Assembly (NCBI GenBank): GCA_018883325.1 | Contig: VEQH01000005.1 | Span: 1-64,000, forward strand | DNA from: Flavobacteriales bacterium | GTDB taxonomy: Bacteria > Bacteroidota > Bacteroidia > Flavobacteriales_D > Crocinitomicaceae | Reading direction: 5' to 3' | DNA length: 64,000 nt | Shown here: one piece after another, positions 28,760 through 46,890 of the stretch | How positions within the stretch are numbered: the stretch's first letter is position 1 | How the letters are laid out: each line of letters starts with the position of its first letter | Notes under the pieces: generated by a model | Databases searched by the model: none | What the model was told of the DNA's origin: nothing | The model's input: only the letters and a program-made list of their open reading frames with translations | Translations under genes and position numbers: made by a program

Positions 28760-28854
28760 GAATTTCTATTTTCTTCGCAAATTATTGTTTTACAGTCATT
28801 TTATAACTCGTTGCGAACAATTTTAACTCCTTCCTGAAGTTGAAATTTTTTAAG

Positions 28855-28870
28855 TCCGTCAGCTGACGGA
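28855..28870. repeat. 16-bp perfect palindrome TCCGTCAGCTGACGGA
   Basis: within R4 copy 1, absent in R4 copy 2. Confidence 0.85.
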
Positions 28871-28949
28871 ACAGAAATTTTAAAAATTAACAACTTCATT
28901 TCAGTAGCTAAAACCATGAAATTCAAGGCCGAGAATTGTTCGCTAATAT

Positions 28950-29441
28950 TTACACAAAAGTTCTCACTTCGATTAAATTCTTGTTTTTAAAATTCAAGTA
29001 TTTTATGCTGTTAAAATTGCGGATACTCAAAATATTAATTTCAGCCTGATTCAAATTTAGACGTTCATCGTCCATTGTAAAACCCTTGCGGATACATTCA
29101 TTCAAGCGTTTGGTTGCCCATTGTCGAAATTGTGTTCCTCGCAACGATTTTACCCGATAACCAACGGAAATAATAACGTCGAGATTGTAATAATTAAATG
29201 CCTTTTGCTGAAATTCGGAAATTCCGAATTTCTTTATTGTATTGACTTCTTCTAACTCTTTTTCGGAATAAATATTTTTTATATGTTCGTTTATTGTGGA
29301 CTTAGCTTTCCCAAACAAAACCGCTATTTGCTCTTGAGTGAGCCAAACAGTTTCCTCTTCAAAACGAACATCAACCGAAACTTGCTCATCTTGGGTTTTG
29401 AAGATGATGAACGATGCGTTATTTTCTACATTTCTATTCAT
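28950..29441 (-). pseudogene. RhuM family protein, C-terminus truncated by the R4 element
   Basis: VWLTQEQIAVLFGKAKSTINEHIKNIYSEKELEE...YYNLDVIISVGYRVKSLRGTQFRQWATKRL; last about 27 residues are encoded by R4. Confidence 0.8.
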
Positions 29442-35636: not shown

Positions 35637-36183
35637 TTATACTTTTTAATTGAATTAATAGTTTGTGTGATTTATTGCTTACTATGAAAAATGGAACACA
35701 ATACGTATTTACAAAAAACAAAATTATTATTGCTCCAAAGACAGCGTAATAAAATTCATTATTTAAAAGTTCCATTAGTTGAATATAACGAAAATAAAAA
35801 TCTTCATTTGATTGTTGTCCAAAATTCAAAAGTTTCATTTCCTCTTTAAAGTAGTAAATCAGAAAAGTAGATCCATTCATTAAACTTATGGTCAATAACA
35901 AAAACAGAATGAATAATCGATTCTTTTTATTTTCATTAAATAGAAAAAGAAAAAGAAAATAAGTAGAAAAAAACACAGTCGGAATTACCGACAAACCAAA
36001 TGTCCATAAAAGATTCAAGTGCAAAAAAACTAATATTAAGGAAGTCAATTGAACAAGTAGAATAATTGATACCATATTAAAAAATAACGAAATTTCTCGC
36101 TTCAAATCAGGAACTAGGTTTATTTCACTTTTTGAAATACTCCAGATTTTTAAAAAATGACCATATCCAAGTAATCCCTTCAT
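35611..36183 (-). CDS. small multi-TM protein of the kinase/PP2C operon
   Basis: ORF overlapping both neighbours, four hydrophobic segments. Confidence 0.6.
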   Translation of the reverse strand: MKGLLGYGHFLKIWSISKSEINLVPDLKREISLFFNMVSIILLVQLTSLILVFLHLNLLWTFGLSVIPTVFFSTYFLFLFLFNENKKNRLFILFLLLTISLMNGSTFLIYYFKEEMKLLNFGQQSNEDFYFRYIQLMELLNNEFYYAVFGAIIILFFVNTYCVPFFIVSNKSHKLLIQLKSINEQLRKKR

Positions 36184-37976
36184 TTTCTTAGTATTGTATC
36201 TAGCATTTTAGAAATAGAAAATGAACGTTTTGGTTGAATCATTTTTTCGAATTCGAGTTGAGTTTCATCAATGATTATGGATTGTAATTCTGGTATTTTT
36301 AAATCTATTAATGGTATTTGATTTTCTTCAAAAAAAGAAGGGATTTTGGTCATTTGAGGAGCATTATCCACTTCTATTCTTAATGAATTACTTCTTTCAT
36401 TAAATAAATCATTTCTCGCCTCTAGCCAAAATGTATTTGATTTTGTAGGGAAAAATTTATAAGAGTGTATAGCCTGAACTGTTTCATTTAATCCATCATT
36501 CGAACGTAAAATTATTTTTTCGGCATTTTCAACACTCCAACTCAACTCTATTTCTACACCTCTTGGTATCTGGTGAAAATCAGTGTTAAAATACTTATAT
36601 TCAATTTTCTTGTAAACGCGGATTTGTATTTCCTTTTCAATTTTTGTTTCACCATCTAAAGCTGTAACGACGAGTTTATAGAAAGTATCCCGAATAGGAG
36701 TTACTTGTTTCATTCCATCTAAAGGAACATTAATTCTTTCACTATCAGCAACAAGCTCTACTTTATCAGCATTTTGGACTTTCCAAGATAAATCAGTACT
36801 TTTTCCGAAAACTAGTTTTTGGTTTAGGGATTTGAATTCTGATATTTTCGGAAGTGGTAAAACTTCAATTGATATTTCTTTTTCAGTTTTATCAAAGGCA
36901 TTTTCTGCAATTAACTTGTATGTAGTCGTATTTGTTGGCAAAACGGAAATAGAATGTTTTCCTGTTACATTTCCAATTCCACTGCTGATATAGGTTATAT
37001 CATAATTTTCAGTCTCCCATGATAATTCAACATAATTACCTTTAAGAACTTCTTTTTTATTTGTACTTAAGCTATTTATCTTTGGCGCAGTCAAATAATG
37101 TTCAAGAGGATTAAAATTGAGATAATCACTTTCTGATAAATAGCTGCATAGAATTCTCGTCAGACTTTTAACAGAGTAAGACAGCTTTTGTAAATCACTA
37201 AAGATTTCTGAGTTTTCAAAATTGTCAAAGTCATTTTCGGTGAATAATAAATATTGAGTATCCTTAATTTGATATTCACTCCAAAGGTTAGTATTTTCAG
37301 AGAGCGCAATTATCGAAAGATATATTACTAATTCTGAAAAATAATCTGCTTTTAAAGACGCTATTCCACACTTAAAACGGGATGGATGTTGATAGCCTTT
37401 TAAACCTGTAACTAATTCTTTTTGACCTTCAATTTCAGGAATACAAATAGAATCATAATCTACAAGTTTGATGTTTCCGTTTCGGTCAATCAAAATATTT
37501 CCTTCCTGTAAATCTCCGTGAGAAATTTTGTTTTCTCGTAAAGTTTTGCACATTTCCAGAAAGTCATTAGCAAGTTTAGTTAGTTTGCTTTTATTGTTTA
37601 AATTTTCTTCAATGTATTCTTTTAGTAATTTGCCTTCAAGCCATTCCATTCGAATGGTGTCATATAAAGTTCCATTTACTAAAATACCTTTTTCATCGTA
37701 GATGAAATCAGCAAAATAGGATAGTTTCTTTTCTAAAAGATACCTTGATATTTTACGATAACGATCTGCATGTTCTCCCATTGGAACGTGCCAAACTCGG
37801 AAAGCCCATTTTTTATTTTGATGCTCTAATTGGAATACCATGTTAAATCCACCTACAAAAGCAAATGGACTACCATTAGGATTAAGCCTTGGTTTTGCTC
37901 CTTGCAATTCAGGTATTTTTAAAAAAATATCTGAATTTTTAATAGCGGTGATAATATCTTGTTTGCTTACGGACAT
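36180..37976 (-). CDS. protein-kinase-like protein with three C-terminal Ig-like repeats
   Basis: HGDLQEGNILIDRNGNIKLVDYDS, GLKGYQHPSR; LSWETEN/LSWKVQN/LSWSVEN repeats. Confidence 0.82.
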   Translation of the reverse strand: MSVSKQDIITAIKNSDIFLKIPELQGAKPRLNPNGSPFAFVGGFNMVFQLEHQNKKWAFRVWHVPMGEHADRYRKISRYLLEKKLSYFADFIYDEKGILVNGTLYDTIRMEWLEGKLLKEYIEENLNNKSKLTKLANDFLEMCKTLRENKISHGDLQEGNILIDRNGNIKLVDYDSICIPEIEGQKELVTGLKGYQHPSRFKCGIASLKADYFSELVIYLSIIALSENTNLWSEYQIKDTQYLLFTENDFDNFENSEIFSDLQKLSYSVKSLTRILCSYLSESDYLNFNPLEHYLTAPKINSLSTNKKEVLKGNYVELSWETENYDITYISSGIGNVTGKHSISVLPTNTTTYKLIAENAFDKTEKEISIEVLPLPKISEFKSLNQKLVFGKSTDLSWKVQNADKVELVADSERINVPLDGMKQVTPIRDTFYKLVVTALDGETKIEKEIQIRVYKKIEYKYFNTDFHQIPRGVEIELSWSVENAEKIILRSNDGLNETVQAIHSYKFFPTKSNTFWLEARNDLFNERSNSLRIEVDNAPQMTKIPSFFEENQIPLIDLKIPELQSIIIDETQLEFEKMIQPKRSFSISKMLDTILRK

Positions 37977-37978
37977 TT

Positions 37979-38548
37979 TTAAAATTTATCAAAAATTGAA
38001 TTTGCTTTAGAATTCTCAATTTTCGGTTTTAGTTCTTCTGGCTTGTCCCATTTTGCCATTATTTTCTCTATCGGCAATATTTGGACTTCATTTCCTTTAA
38101 TTGCAAATCCAAATTGAGGTTTAATACTTTCAAATTTATCGTTGAATTGGGAAATTATACTAGATTGATTTTTAATTATAACTATGTTTTCATCATTTAA
38201 TCTTGCTTTAAACGTCCAATTGTATGAGCCAGTTATAATTGTAGAGTCATCGACAACACAAAATTTATTATGCATTAATTTATCTTTTGAACCATTATTG
38301 AAATTTCCGATATATCCAACATGTCCATTGTTTTGCAATAATTCTTTGAAATTAATGCGTGAATTTTTGTTGAACTCGTGATTGGCAACAATAATATAAA
38401 CATAAACACCCTTTTTTTGAACTTCAAGAATGGAATTATAAATATCTACATCCGTAAACCAGGCAACACAAATCTTTAAATTACTTTTGGCTTGAGAAAT
38501 ATGATTAATTATTTGTCTATGGATATTTTCGAAATGCACTTCAATCAT
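37979..38548 (-). CDS. single-HKD phospholipase D-like protein
   Basis: HNKFCVVDDSTIITGSYNWTFKARLNDENIVII. Confidence 0.85.
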   Translation of the reverse strand: MIEVHFENIHRQIINHISQAKSNLKICVAWFTDVDIYNSILEVQKKGVYVYIIVANHEFNKNSRINFKELLQNNGHVGYIGNFNNGSKDKLMHNKFCVVDDSTIITGSYNWTFKARLNDENIVIIKNQSSIISQFNDKFESIKPQFGFAIKGNEVQILPIEKIMAKWDKPEELKPKIENSKANSIFDKF

Positions 38549-38550
38549 GT

Positions 38551-39558
38551 CTAAAATTTTTTCGTGATTTCATTTGAGTTGGGAAGTTTAATTTCTTTCC
38601 TACTAGGTTTATTAGGTTGTCTATCCCATTTTGAAGTAATTTTATCTTTTGCAATTTCAAGTTTATCAACCATAAGCTCTTCTAATGGTTGTAAATCCAT
38701 TATATCAGTTTTACTAAGTTGTTCTTTCAGCCGTTGTGTTAACTCTTTAATAATTTGATTTGAAGATGATAAAAGTGTATTAATTATCTCTGATTTATCA
38801 ACATTGTGAAAATCCTCTTTTGAAAAAAGCAAATCTTCCGTTTCGTAATACCTATTCCATAAATTGGGATATTGCTCAAAAGCTAGAAGTGATAGGTAAA
38901 TTACCAATTCAGAAAAATAGTCCAGTTTATAGTTTATAAATTTATTTTGATTTCGTGATGGATGTTGATAGCCTGGAAGACCTTTAATAGCATCTGACAT
39001 ACCCTCAAGAGGTTTTATAAACATTGAATCGTAATCAATGATAATTAAACTGCCGTCTTGCTTGACAAGAATATTTCCGTGTTGTAAATCACCGTGTGCA
39101 ATATTTTCTTGATGAAAATATTCGACCATCTGTTTAAAGTTGCTAGCAATTTTGGGCAAAATTGATTTTAAGCTGGAAAAGTTATCATTTATGTATTCCT
39201 TTAATGGCTTTCCATCAACCCAATCCATCACAACAACTGGATATATAGAACCACTTATCAATATAGCATCATCTAAATATTTAAAATCGCAGAAATATGG
39301 GTTGTTCAAAGCATTCAAGTAAGTTGAAATTTCTTGACTTCTCTTTTTTGCATCACCAATATCTGCAATCCAACAACGAACGGCTACTTTCTTTGAATCT
39401 TTAGTGTGAAAGGGAAATACAGTAGTATAACCACCTGAATATTGAATAATTCGTGAACCTTTTTGAATCACAGAACCACCAATAAGTTCATTTGCCTTGA
39501 AACTTACTTGCGGGTTTCTCATTGCGGTTACTATGTCTGTTCTTGAAGGATATACCAT
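38551..39558 (-). CDS. protein-kinase-like protein (paralog of the 36180 kinase domain)
   Basis: HGDLQHGNILVKQDGSLIIIDYDS, GLPGYQHPSR. Confidence 0.82.
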   Translation of the reverse strand: MVYPSRTDIVTAMRNPQVSFKANELIGGSVIQKGSRIIQYSGGYTTVFPFHTKDSKKVAVRCWIADIGDAKKRSQEISTYLNALNNPYFCDFKYLDDAILISGSIYPVVVMDWVDGKPLKEYINDNFSSLKSILPKIASNFKQMVEYFHQENIAHGDLQHGNILVKQDGSLIIIDYDSMFIKPLEGMSDAIKGLPGYQHPSRNQNKFINYKLDYFSELVIYLSLLAFEQYPNLWNRYYETEDLLFSKEDFHNVDKSEIINTLLSSSNQIIKELTQRLKEQLSKTDIMDLQPLEELMVDKLEIAKDKITSKWDRQPNKPSRKEIKLPNSNEITKKF

Positions 39559-39561
39559 AAT

Positions 39562-40833
39562 TTAGAATTTATCAAAAATATTTTTTGCCTTAGAATCTAC
39601 TTTTGATTTTTCTTTTGGCACTAATTTCTCAACTTTGATTTTTTCGTTTTTAGCTTCTTCTACTTCAATCTTTTCTATCTCTTCATTTTTATTATTTTCC
39701 GGATTTGGGTTTTCAGCCAGTTTTTTTTCTAAATCATTCGGTTCTTCTTCTACTTGATCTGAGCATTGTTCGTCATTATTCTTTACTTCTGAATCATCCT
39801 TTTTTTCAGTTAATATAGTTTCTTTGTTTTCCTCTTTTCCTAAAAAAAAACCTTTAACCTTAGACATTAATCCCTCTTTAGGCTGTTTTTCTTCGGTTTC
39901 GGCTTCAAGGCTTTCTGTTGTTAATGATTCATTTTGTGAAGTTTCCAATTCTTTGACTTTCTGATTCTCTGCATCTTTTTCTTTCCTTAATTGTTCTTCT
40001 TCTTGCTTTCTCAGTTTGGTTTTTTCATTCTCAGCTTCTTGTTTGTTTATCAAATTATTTAGGTTAGTTAGAAGAATGTTTTTATACTCAATCCCATTTT
40101 TTTCCACTTCTGACAGTTCAATACAAAGTAAAGCACAATCATCATTAGTTAATTGGTTTTCTTCAATTGCTTGCGTGATGAATCGTTCAAAGTCTTCTTG
40201 TGATTGCCATACCGTTATTTTTCCGATTGCTTTTTCGCCTTCATTTATAAACCATTCAGCTAAAGCATCTGTCATTAAATAAAAAGTTCCATTTCTTAGA
40301 TTTCCACTTTTTTCTTTCGGTCTTCCTTTGTGGGAATCTCCTATGCTTGTCAGGTAATCAGGGAAATTGTCAAAAGCAATTGGTTCGACTTTACTAGATA
40401 ATTTCACCAACTCTTTTTCATATTCTTTAAAATTGTTTGGTACAAAAAACAAAAAACTATCACCAAGTGCTGATGCAGACCATTTCTTTTCAGTTTCAAA
40501 GAATTGCAATCCTACAAATGTTGCAAGAGCTGGATCTTTTCGACTATACTGTGATTTGGTAAACCACTTTGTTTCAGGTAAACTAACCAATTCATCAATT
40601 CTTTTTTGCCATTCAGATTGACAAACTTTAATGAGTTCACTTTCTTCTAAGTCCGTTCTTTCAACAAAATGAGAAACCAATATTTCTGACCATACTTTGG
40701 GAAAGAACGATTTAGAAACACCATCAGCAACCGAAAACCTATGATTGCTTTTATTTACAGCATAGTTGTCAGCACAATCAATATATTGTTCTGCACTTTT
40801 ACAAGTTATAAATCCCTTAATAGAAACTTTCAT
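39562..40833 (-). CDS. PP2C-like phosphatase with charged C-terminal extension
   Basis: VADGVSKSFFPKVWSE, SALGDSFLFF, LMTDALAEW, NDDCALLCIEL. Confidence 0.8.
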   Translation of the reverse strand: MKVSIKGFITCKSAEQYIDCADNYAVNKSNHRFSVADGVSKSFFPKVWSEILVSHFVERTDLEESELIKVCQSEWQKRIDELVSLPETKWFTKSQYSRKDPALATFVGLQFFETEKKWSASALGDSFLFFVPNNFKEYEKELVKLSSKVEPIAFDNFPDYLTSIGDSHKGRPKEKSGNLRNGTFYLMTDALAEWFINEGEKAIGKITVWQSQEDFERFITQAIEENQLTNDDCALLCIELSEVEKNGIEYKNILLTNLNNLINKQEAENEKTKLRKQEEEQLRKEKDAENQKVKELETSQNESLTTESLEAETEEKQPKEGLMSKVKGFFLGKEENKETILTEKKDDSEVKNNDEQCSDQVEEEPNDLEKKLAENPNPENNKNEEIEKIEVEEAKNEKIKVEKLVPKEKSKVDSKAKNIFDKF

Positions 40834-40869
40834 TCATAATTTATTTTGATGTTTCCAATTCATTTTTGT

Positions 40870-41727
40870 TTATGCTATTCTATCCGTACCACCAGAAGAA
40901 CCAAAGTTGATAAACTTGATTAATGTTTCAGGACCGGCGTTTGAAACAAAACCTTTTGAATCCGCAGATGTTACAAATTCGTATTTTCTTGCTGCTTCTC
41001 TGTATGTTTCAGGTACTTTACTTGATATTTTGAATAGCAACTTTCCTTCTTCATCTAAAATTTTGCTTTCGCTTGATTCAAATTTAGATTCGTTGAATGG
41101 AGGCTGACCAACGTGAACATTGAAAATAATTGGATTACCGTCATTTGTTTTGATATTCATTATTGAGTTTGCAACAGAAATTGCTTTTTCTTTATCATCC
41201 ATTGCATTTCCTCCTGTGTAAGGCATTCCATCAGAAACATTGATAATCACAGGTGCTGGATTATCAGGTTTTTTGCTTATCCATCCTTCAATTAGTTGCT
41301 TGGCAAAATCTAATGCTTCACCCATTGGAGTTAATCCATTCTCTGGACAAGTCGGTTCTAAATAAATCGCCATTTCTTCTTCAATTTCCACTAAACCACC
41401 TGCTCCGTCTGAAACTTTCTTTTTAACTTTTTCTGTTCTTAATGGACTATCAGCAAAGGCACTTAAATAATCAGAACGGATGTCGTCAACGGAATTGCCA
41501 CCTTGACCACCATATCCAATGATTGAGATAAAAACTCTGTCTTTGACTTTGTCACCTGCACTATTGGTAAAAATCAAATCATTGATTGTTCTGTTAATTA
41601 CAAGTGCCGTAAACTCGGCTTTGTTTTTACCACCAGTGTAATCTTGTCCCATTGAACCTGACTGATCAACAAGAAAGATGATGTAGCCTGGAGTTGCTGA
41701 ACTCCATTGTTTAGAATTTATACTCAT
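40870..41727 (-). CDS. von Willebrand factor A domain protein
   Basis: MIDAS motif IIFLVDQSGSMGQ; start at internal Met 41727. Confidence 0.85.
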   Translation of the reverse strand: MSINSKQWSSATPGYIIFLVDQSGSMGQDYTGGKNKAEFTALVINRTINDLIFTNSAGDKVKDRVFISIIGYGGQGGNSVDDIRSDYLSAFADSPLRTEKVKKKVSDGAGGLVEIEEEMAIYLEPTCPENGLTPMGEALDFAKQLIEGWISKKPDNPAPVIINVSDGMPYTGGNAMDDKEKAISVANSIMNIKTNDGNPIIFNVHVGQPPFNESKFESSESKILDEEGKLLFKISSKVPETYREAARKYEFVTSADSKGFVSNAGPETLIKFINFGSSGGTDRIA

Positions 41728-42134
41728 ATTATCTATTATTAAATGTTTAATATTAAAAAAGCGCGAGCAATCCCAATCACTTGTAACCGAGGTTCTTGGA
41801 AACCTATCACAAAGCAAAAGGAACGCCCACGCCAATGCAAGGGCGTTTCCACTTTTACCTTTCCATGTGATTTTGAAATTTTCCAAGATTTCGGTTACAG
41901 GAAATTTTTAAGCGAAACGCTATATTTTATGTTCTTATATTTATTTCGTTGTTACTTTCAGTATATCATAAAATTAATGTTTTTCCGAAAATGAGATTCA
42001 TTTATTGAGAAGTTTTTCAGAAAAATTCATCTTGCGGTAAATTCAGCTCCTTTTATAATTCTGTTTAAATTTCAATATCTACTTAGGTTTTTGCTCAACT
42101 AATTTCAATAATTCTAGAATCAAAACAACAAAAT

Positions 42135-42402: not shown

Positions 42403-42442
42403 ATTCCCATAGGTGCGGGATTAATCCCGTACCTATGGGAAT
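42403..42442. repeat. 40-bp near-perfect palindrome
   Basis: ATTCCCATAGGTGCGGGATT/AATCCCGTACCTATGGGAAT, one mismatch per arm. Confidence 0.85.
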
Positions 42443-42748
42443 ACACGAATGGGATTGTACAAATGAATTTACATTAATTTGTTCCTACGAAACTGTCGGG
42501 GTGTTAGAATAATTATCACTGAAAATCAACATCAAAAAATTATCAAGGGAAATCTAATAACAGCAAACCAAGAAATATTAACTGTCTTTTCAATTCACAT
42601 AGGCAGCCTGATTTATGAAAAAAAAATCGTATATTTAGGTTAGAAAGTAATTTATGAAGCATAACCCAATTTATTTGTCAATTTCAATTAGCTTGTTTAC
42701 GTTCAGAAATTATTCAGTTCAGCAGCTGTTCATCTAATTGATAATCAA

Positions 42749-43954
42749 ATGCTTTATTCTATCAAAACCATCAATAAGATTTACGAAACTGGCGACAAAC
42801 CAGTTTTAGTCGAATGTTCTGATTTGAATAATTATGTATGTAAACATAATCGTGGACAACCTATTGCCTACAAGTTGTTTGCAGAATGGATTGCTCATTG
42901 TTTTTTAGCTGATTTAGGAGTTTCTGTTTCGAGGAAAGAATTAATTAAGATTAAAGACGAGCATGTGCAAGGGACTCCAGAGTGTCAAATAGCATTTTTT
43001 AAAAACACACTTACTTTTGGTACTTTGCATTTAAAAGAGGCTTTAGAATGGAATCAACTTAATCCAATAAATTCTAAATACATACAAAACAAAACTGATT
43101 TATTAACGATAGCTTTTTGTGATATCTGGTTAGCTAATGAAGATCGAAACTTTAATAATTTCAATCTTTTATGTAACCCCTCAAAAGAAGGAATTTTTAT
43201 TATTCCAATTGATCATGCTGCTTGTTTTAATAGCTTGTCTTTCAATAAGATTCAAAATTTAGCCTTGTTGACTGAATCAGATTCCATTATCTTTACTTCA
43301 GAATTCAGAAATTTAGTAAGACAGGTTGTAAAAAAGGAAAAAGATATTTGAGTATACGCTTTCGTACCACTAAAATAAAACAACTATATTCATAACTCAA
43401 AATAAAATCTCAATTTGAGTTATCATTAATTTTGCCTTTCTTTTTGCTTGACCAAAAAGAAACAAAAAGTCAAGGCTCTAAATTTCTTTTTGTTCGCAAA
43501 TATTTATTCTACAAATAGTTACAACTCGTTGCGAACAATTTTAACTTCTTTCTGAAACTGAAATTTTTTAAAAATGTTCTTACAGAAATTTTAAAAATTA
43601 ACAGTTTCAGTGCAGTAGCTAAAACCTAGAAATTCAAGGCCAATAATGGTTCGCCAATATTCAATAAATAGTTCTCACTTCAATTAAATTCTTGATTTTC
43701 AATTTTGAAGTATTTTACAGGTACGATTGCGAACACTCAAAAAAGATATTAATGATATAATAGATTCATTGTACATTTGTATTCTTAATTTAGAAACTAA
43801 ATACGATGAAATTGTTTTAAAAATACCAGTGGAATGGAATATTCCTGAGGAATATATAATAGCTTTAAAAGCAAATTTATTCTCCAAAGAATGGTTAATT
43901 GAAACTAAAACAACTTTTTTAACGTTCATCAAGTCAAGCCTTAATTTAAAATGA
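42749..43954 (+). pseudogene. HipA-like kinase gene interrupted by the R4 element (exons 42749-43348 and 43751-43954)
   Basis: removing 43349-43750 (element plus one target-site copy) joins KEKDI to NDIIDSLY in frame; restored stop overlaps DUF3037 start (ATGA). Confidence 0.85.
43349..43739 (+). mobile_element. R4 nonautonomous element, copy 2
   Basis: TGAGTATACGCTTTCGTACC...GGTACGATTGCGAACACTCA (16/20 inverted match); flanked by AAAAAGATATT at 43338-43348 and 43740-43750. Confidence 0.9.
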
Positions 43955-44787
43955 AAACGTATTATTCACTGGTATCCATTTCTACAAATCCATCGTTTGA
44001 TGAAAAATTCAATATTGGATTAATTTGCGTTACACCAAAAGAAATATTTTATCACTTTTCAAAAAGTAAGTTTAAAGTCATCTCTAAATTATTGAGTTCT
44101 AATGGGAGAAAGTTGGCTCTTTCGGGACTTCAAGCAATAGAAAAAAACTTAAATCCAATTGTTTCAGAATTTAATCGTCAATTGGAATCTAAAACCGAGT
44201 CAAAATTCTCAGAATCCTATTTTAATTATTTGAGTAAGTACAATAATAATTTGATTCAATTTTCACAAGCTGAATCAATAGATTTAGATGTTGATAAAGA
44301 GGTTTTTAATGTATTATTTAAAAAATACATTTATGATTCTGAACTTTTTGAAGAACAAATTAATTCGAAAACAACTAGTTTTAATTCGAGAAAAAACAAT
44401 TTTAAGCAATCAGTAAAAGAATTTGCCAACATTAATTTTTCAGTTAGTAATGCAATTATAAAAGATTTGGTAGTACCTGTTACGGTTGATGTTTTCGGGA
44501 AAAATGGTGCGTTTGTTTCTAATCAAATCATTGATTTTACTCGACCAATTGAAACACTAAAAAGCGAAATTTCATCTTATTTATATTTGGTTGAGCAAAC
44601 GGCAAAAGCAGATGTTCTTTCACAAAATTTTTTGTTAGGTGAAGAACCTTTATTTGAAAATACTCAGCAGCATGATATTTGGAATGAAATCCGTAAGTTT
44701 AATTTAATTGAATTCGTGCCTTTTAATGAATCACAACGTATAATTAATTATATGATAGAAAAAGGAGTTGAACCAATAGTTAAATAA
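43951..44787 (+). CDS. DUF3037 domain protein
   Basis: YYSLVSISTNPSFDEKFNIGLICVTP; follows HipA-like kinase. Confidence 0.78.
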   Translation: MKTYYSLVSISTNPSFDEKFNIGLICVTPKEIFYHFSKSKFKVISKLLSSNGRKLALSGLQAIEKNLNPIVSEFNRQLESKTESKFSESYFNYLSKYNNNLIQFSQAESIDLDVDKEVFNVLFKKYIYDSELFEEQINSKTTSFNSRKNNFKQSVKEFANINFSVSNAIIKDLVVPVTVDVFGKNGAFVSNQIIDFTRPIETLKSEISSYLYLVEQTAKADVLSQNFLLGEEPLFENTQQHDIWNEIRKFNLIEFVPFNESQRIINYMIEKGVEPIVK

Positions 44788-46410: not shown

Positions 46411-46429
46411 TAAAATCACTGATTATAAA

Positions 46430-46890
46430 AAGATTCCTCCCGAAGGTCGGAACGACACTGCGTTTGGGACAAGTAGCGAAAATGCTTTGCATTTTCGAAT
46501 TTCCTTCCCAATTCATAAGTCATTCCGAGGGAAACGAGGAATCTTATTGGATGTCTTTTCATCTTTAGTTTCTTGAAAATAAATAACTGATTATAAAGAG
46601 ATTCCTCCCGAAGGTCGGAACGACACTGCGTTTGGGGCAAATGGCGAAAATGCTTCGCATTTTCGAATTCCCCACCTAATTCATAAGTCATTCCGAGGGA
46701 AACGAGGAATCTTATTGGATGTCTTTTTATCTTTAGTTTCTTGAAAATAAATCACTGATTACCAAAAATTTCTTTCGAAGGTCGGAAGGACACTGCGTTT
46801 GGGACAAGTAGCGAAAATGATTCGCATTTTCACATTCCCCACCCAATTCATGGGTCATTCCTAGGGAAACGAGGAATCTTATTGGATGTC
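46430..46890. repeat. R2 element amplified as three tandem units of about 168 bp
   Basis: GAAGGTCGGA anchors at 46442, 46610, 46777; each unit holds GATTCCTC...GAGGAATC and a GCGAAAATGC hairpin. Confidence 0.85.

Follow-up and report, generated by a model that had tools for sequence, protein, structure and literature searches.

Insertion of a MITE into the kinase gene of a HipAD-type operon with an intact DUF3037 partner in a Flavobacteriales bacterium

The anti-phage system DS-6, renamed HipAD and corresponding to PDC-M66 in PADLOC, is a two-gene operon in which a gene for a HipA-like kinase is followed by a gene for a DUF3037 protein (PMC13092281, PMC12548924), and a change of a catalytic residue abolishes its defence (PMC13092281). 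In Retron-Sda1, the HipA kinase is required for defence against phage Bas51, and deletion of DUF3037 is toxic (PMC12548924). HipBA of E. coli similarly contains a HipA-related kinase toxin within a toxin–antitoxin pair (PMC13092281). Bacterial MITEs, e.g., BrickBuilt and MITE464 of Porphyromonas gingivalis, are short, A+T-rich, multi-copy elements with terminal inverted repeats (TIRs) and target duplications of variable length that lack a transposase (PMC4596501).

The locus studied here lies in a 64,000-nucleotide stretch (hereafter the window) of contig VEQH01000005.1 from the draft assembly GCA_018883325.1 (139 contigs). A HipA_2 kinase gene and an adjoining DUF3037 gene occur in one operon on the plus strand, and both match PDC-M66 profiles, which by sequence makes the gene pair a HipAD/DS-6/PDC-M66 system, an already described combination of kinase toxin and DUF3037 antitoxin. 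Unlike in E. coli HipBA, the partner shows no similarity to HipB, being a DUF3037 protein, and is encoded after the kinase. Different from HipAD/PDC-M66, the kinase gene is interrupted and the DUF3037 half alone is complete; a retron RT was not noted beside the locus. Because the insertion places a stop at residue 200 of the kinase, whose frame continues past the insert, the locus appears to be a disrupted rather than functional member of this system. An inverted repeat (CCCATAGGTGCGGGATTAATCCCGTACCTATGGG, 42405-42450) is located upstream of the kinase gene, and an ORF consisting of two near-identical repeats (MTYELGGEFENAKHFRHLPQTQCRSDLREES..., 46416-46691, minus strand) is probably a spurious frame over a DNA repeat.

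The upstream piece of the kinase gene (42749..43351, plus strand) comprises the N-terminal 200 codons, the product of which matches Pfam HipA_2 (PF20613) with an E-value of 9.6e-15, the match ending at profile position 180 of 240, and PADLOC PDC-M66A at 2.3e-12. The remaining 67 C-terminal codons (43751..43954, plus strand) are now detached, and a candidate TTG-started remnant ORF covers this part from 43727. Neither piece contains additional stops or frameshifts. NEDRNFNNFN and IDH, interpreted here as the catalytic loop and the metal-binding motif of HipA-type kinases, both lie in the retained part, before the cut. The intact DUF3037 gene (43951..44787, plus strand, 278 aa) encodes the counterpart of the antitoxin of characterised relatives; its product matches PDC-M66B at 8.8e-5, scores 19.1 bits against Pfam DUF3037, under the cut-off of 22.6, and shares 29% identity end to end with its equivalent downstream of an intact Chitinophagaceae kinase gene.

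Between the two kinase pieces lies a 391-bp insert (43349..43739, no strand assigned) bounded by imperfect 20-bp TIRs, i.e., TGAGTATACGCTTTCGTACC on the left (43349..43368, plus strand) and TGAGTGTTCGCAATCGTACC, given as the reverse complement, on the right (43720..43739, minus strand). The sequence AAAAAGATATT occurs in two perfect copies in the whole window (43338..43348 and 43740..43750, both plus strand), each abutting one end of the element exactly, against a chance expectation of about 0.45 occurrences anywhere. Bases 1-3 of the insert form an in-frame TGA that terminates the upstream 200-aa ORF. Joining the flanks with a single copy of AAAAAGATATT yields a stop-free frame of 267 aa, whose TGA at 43952-43954 overlaps the ATG of the DUF3037 gene at 43951 as ATGA.

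Intact HipA_2 homologues of other Bacteroidota (including L059, L022, L060, and L063) align with the joined frame uninterrupted across the junction, and the 67 C-terminal residues used as the sole query matched L059 at 1.2e-6 and L022 at 1e-3. Of 399 genomes sampled from the phylum, 97 encode HipA_2 proteins, in most cases as an uninterrupted frame of about 260-290 codons. The original prediction, made from the letters alone, had proposed a HipA-like kinase gene split by a mobile element, an 11-bp duplication immediately outside TGAG...CTCA ends, frame restoration upon removal of the element and one duplicate, a premature TGA supplied by the element, an ATGA overlap, and an intact DUF3037 partner. 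The duplication is borne out to the base, the stop is the first codon of the element, the overlap is real, the restored protein aligns with intact homologues through the junction, and the partner is full length compared with that of the intact homologous pair. A second kinase copy was not found in the genome, a search for viral relatives of the kinase returned none, and a PDB sequence search gave chance matches only, none to HipA. The AlphaFold model of one intact homologue was discarded because of its pLDDT of 39.5.

The insert belongs to a multi-copy family that has ends of its own and generates target duplications, consistent with the mobile element proposed originally. Searched against its own genome, it gave 25 matches, nearly all of which, besides itself, show 74-88% identity, and a degenerate TIR pattern has 47 matches in this genome vs. 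0 for the reversed control. Two subfamilies with common ends were recognised, A of ~385-410 bp, which includes the kinase insert, and B of ~160-180 bp with a different interior. Perfect target duplications of 8-11 bp flank 21 of 36 well-delimited copies (at least 9 bp in 14 and at least 10 bp in 8), whereas a control with re-paired left and right flanks averaged 0.2, 0.14, and 0.06, respectively. These duplications are rich in A+T, with a variable outermost base beside TGAG/CTCA, so that 11 bp represents the longest case rather than a fixed length of the family. Among 26 delimited copies in the genome, only the kinase insert clearly interrupts a long frame, which has 286 open codons once joined, and nearly all others are intergenic; L009 and L012 were considered as further gene disruptions and rejected, being read as insertions beside genes.

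No long ORF exists within the 391-bp element, and none of the end pairs found encloses a transposase; the insert, with its TIRs, several copies, and 11-bp target duplication, is therefore a MITE, presumably moved in trans by another enzyme. Searches of the genus and order with the TIRs for an autonomous parent with the same ends yielded MITEs only, in draft assemblies that break at repeats; a 1.2-kb end pair (L151) was rejected because it holds a PIN-like gene with duplicated flanks and not a transposase. The ends are present in 14 of 90 genus genomes, with relatives of the insert in 13 further species, and absent from all other genera among the 249 genomes of the order searched, indicating that the family is, as far as sampled, limited to the genus. 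No earlier description of it was found in the literature searched. BrickBuilt differs in that it carries tandem repeats internally and has unrelated ends (GAGACCTTTGCA), similar to those of an IS5-family element, whereas the family here is bounded by TGAGTRTWCGC... ends, is flanked by 8-11-bp duplications, and contains a conserved internal stem structure (PMC4596501 for BrickBuilt). A search of the element against Rfam gave no meaningful match, and a search for an outward promoter found sigma-70-like sites at chance level and no Bacteroidetes-type match inside.

A more degenerate subfamily-A copy with one truncated end (L014) is located at 28761-29039 of the window. Subfamily-B copies (~160-180 bp; L034 at 1501-1681, L032, L040, L041, and others) have an interior unrelated to that of A, with CGAAAATGCAAAGCATTTTCGC and GTCATTCCGACC...GGGAGGAATCT inverted repeats, and their 8-10-bp duplications frequently lie one base out of register with the TGAG/CTCA ends. 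The same flanking site in two genomes carries a 151-bp MITE in one (L142, 565-715, G042 C38) and a duplicated MITE end in the other (L151, 265-1484, G019 C130); the latter encloses the PIN-like gene, a small ORF, and an inverted repeat (GCCTAACAGCG...CTGCACGCG) resembling an integron attC site. In G084 and G010, many contigs terminate 100-150 bp within a MITE copy (e.g., G084 C1, C9, C59, C60, C80, and C98), suggesting recent, near-identical amplification in those species.

The interior of the MITE, as DNA or RNA, is likely structured. The element folds much more stably than shuffled sequence (z = -7.5), and across 18 copies from several species, standard pairs are kept at 97.1% of the paired positions of a predicted secondary structure with approximate limits of 43469..43707 (plus strand), its stems being kept across the genus. 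Fourteen compensatory cells in five pairs were counted among these copies vs. 4.0 with shuffling and 0-2 once the partner had been shifted by 1-3 columns; the relatedness of the copies inflates these statistics, and we therefore grade the structure as likely rather than proven. The core of the element is more conserved than the stretches just inside its ends.

Directly upstream of the kinase gene, on the opposite strand, is a TerY-P-like cluster (36180-41886, minus strand) encoding TerY (VWA; 2.4e-51), a PP2C-like phosphatase (2.7e-24), two STK_OB-type kinases (6.3e-59), and a PLD-like protein. GC content is 26-32% around the locus vs. 36-39% from ~46 kb on, and together with this cluster it makes the surroundings look like a defence-gene region. 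In a tree of the copies, the kinase MITE and the resident copy L006 group with copies of other species, and 12 of 14 resident copies cluster apart in a clade with 98/96 support. A search with the DUF3037 protein did not recover the kinase/DUF3037 pair elsewhere in the genus. These features are consistent with a gene acquired already broken, as a low-GC defence stretch with its MITE, from another member of the genus. However, L006 lies on the same side of the tree, so that an old lineage retained in the genome explains the grouping too, and no donor was found; the kinase MITE may have arrived with the locus or may represent an older resident lineage, and acquisition in the broken state seems to us possible but doubtful. 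The empty site that the original prediction had suggested seeking in related strains did not emerge: among 150 genomes, the DUF3037 protein was matched in four, including its own, none at the orthologous place, and neither an orthologous empty site nor an orthologous intact pair was present. Although the assembly is only a draft, the notion that 43349-43739 is an ordinary gene part, with no homologue spanning the junction, or an assembly artefact is refuted, short of long-read confirmation, by intact homologues that span the junction without the 391 bp and by the repeat family, whose members have ends and target duplications of their own, and the probability of this notion is close to nil.

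Since all recognisable catalytic motifs precede the cut, the sequence leaves room for residual kinase activity, and the 200-aa kinase could retain some function or have gained a regulatory role, checked by the intact DUF3037 protein. The lack of further decay in either piece and the full-length DUF3037 gene would fit this, but the final quarter of the HipA_2 domain, present in the aligned intact homologues, is lost here, and we consider such activity unlikely. Less likely still, in our judgement, is a reversible switch in which the palindromic MITE excises precisely between the 11-bp repeats and rare cells regain the kinase. Perfect repeats with exact frame restoration, the very strong self-folding of the insert, and a struck toxin half beside a retained antitoxin half would fit a switch; if it were true, a structured MITE would turn an anti-phage toxin off reversibly, with the antitoxin kept permanently in the population. 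As a rule, however, elements of this kind excise precisely only rarely, and neither a sign of selection for switching nor an empty-site strain was found, which leaves this scenario quite improbable.

The reading we favour, with a probability of about 0.9, is that a MITE broke a HipAD kinase gene, thereby inactivating the defence locus and orphaning its antitoxin. A non-autonomous MITE, presumably mobilised in trans by a transposase from elsewhere, entered an anti-phage operon of HipAD type within the 3′ third of its kinase (toxin) gene and duplicated 11 bp of its A+T-rich target. As the terminal TGAG provides an instant in-frame stop, the kinase ends at residue 200 of 267 and loses its last 67 residues. 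The product is most likely inactive or unstable, from which we infer that phage defence from this locus is absent, and the DUF3037 antitoxin gene, which is still complete, would be harmless. A broken kinase with an intact antitoxin is the order of loss predicted to be tolerable by published results (PMC12548924, PMC13092281). Essentially, the insertion is a clear but ordinary gene-disruption event.

The analysis also brings to light a MITE family whose interior is conserved in predicted structure and for which no transposase is known. For the HipAD family, the locus appears to represent a natural, clean inactivation of the toxin gene in an anti-phage system that was validated recently, with its antitoxin half whole, which fits the published toxicity of losing DUF3037 alone. 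It would offer a natural setting in which to see whether DUF3037 proteins persist as orphans, e.g., as antitoxins against incoming HipAD loci.
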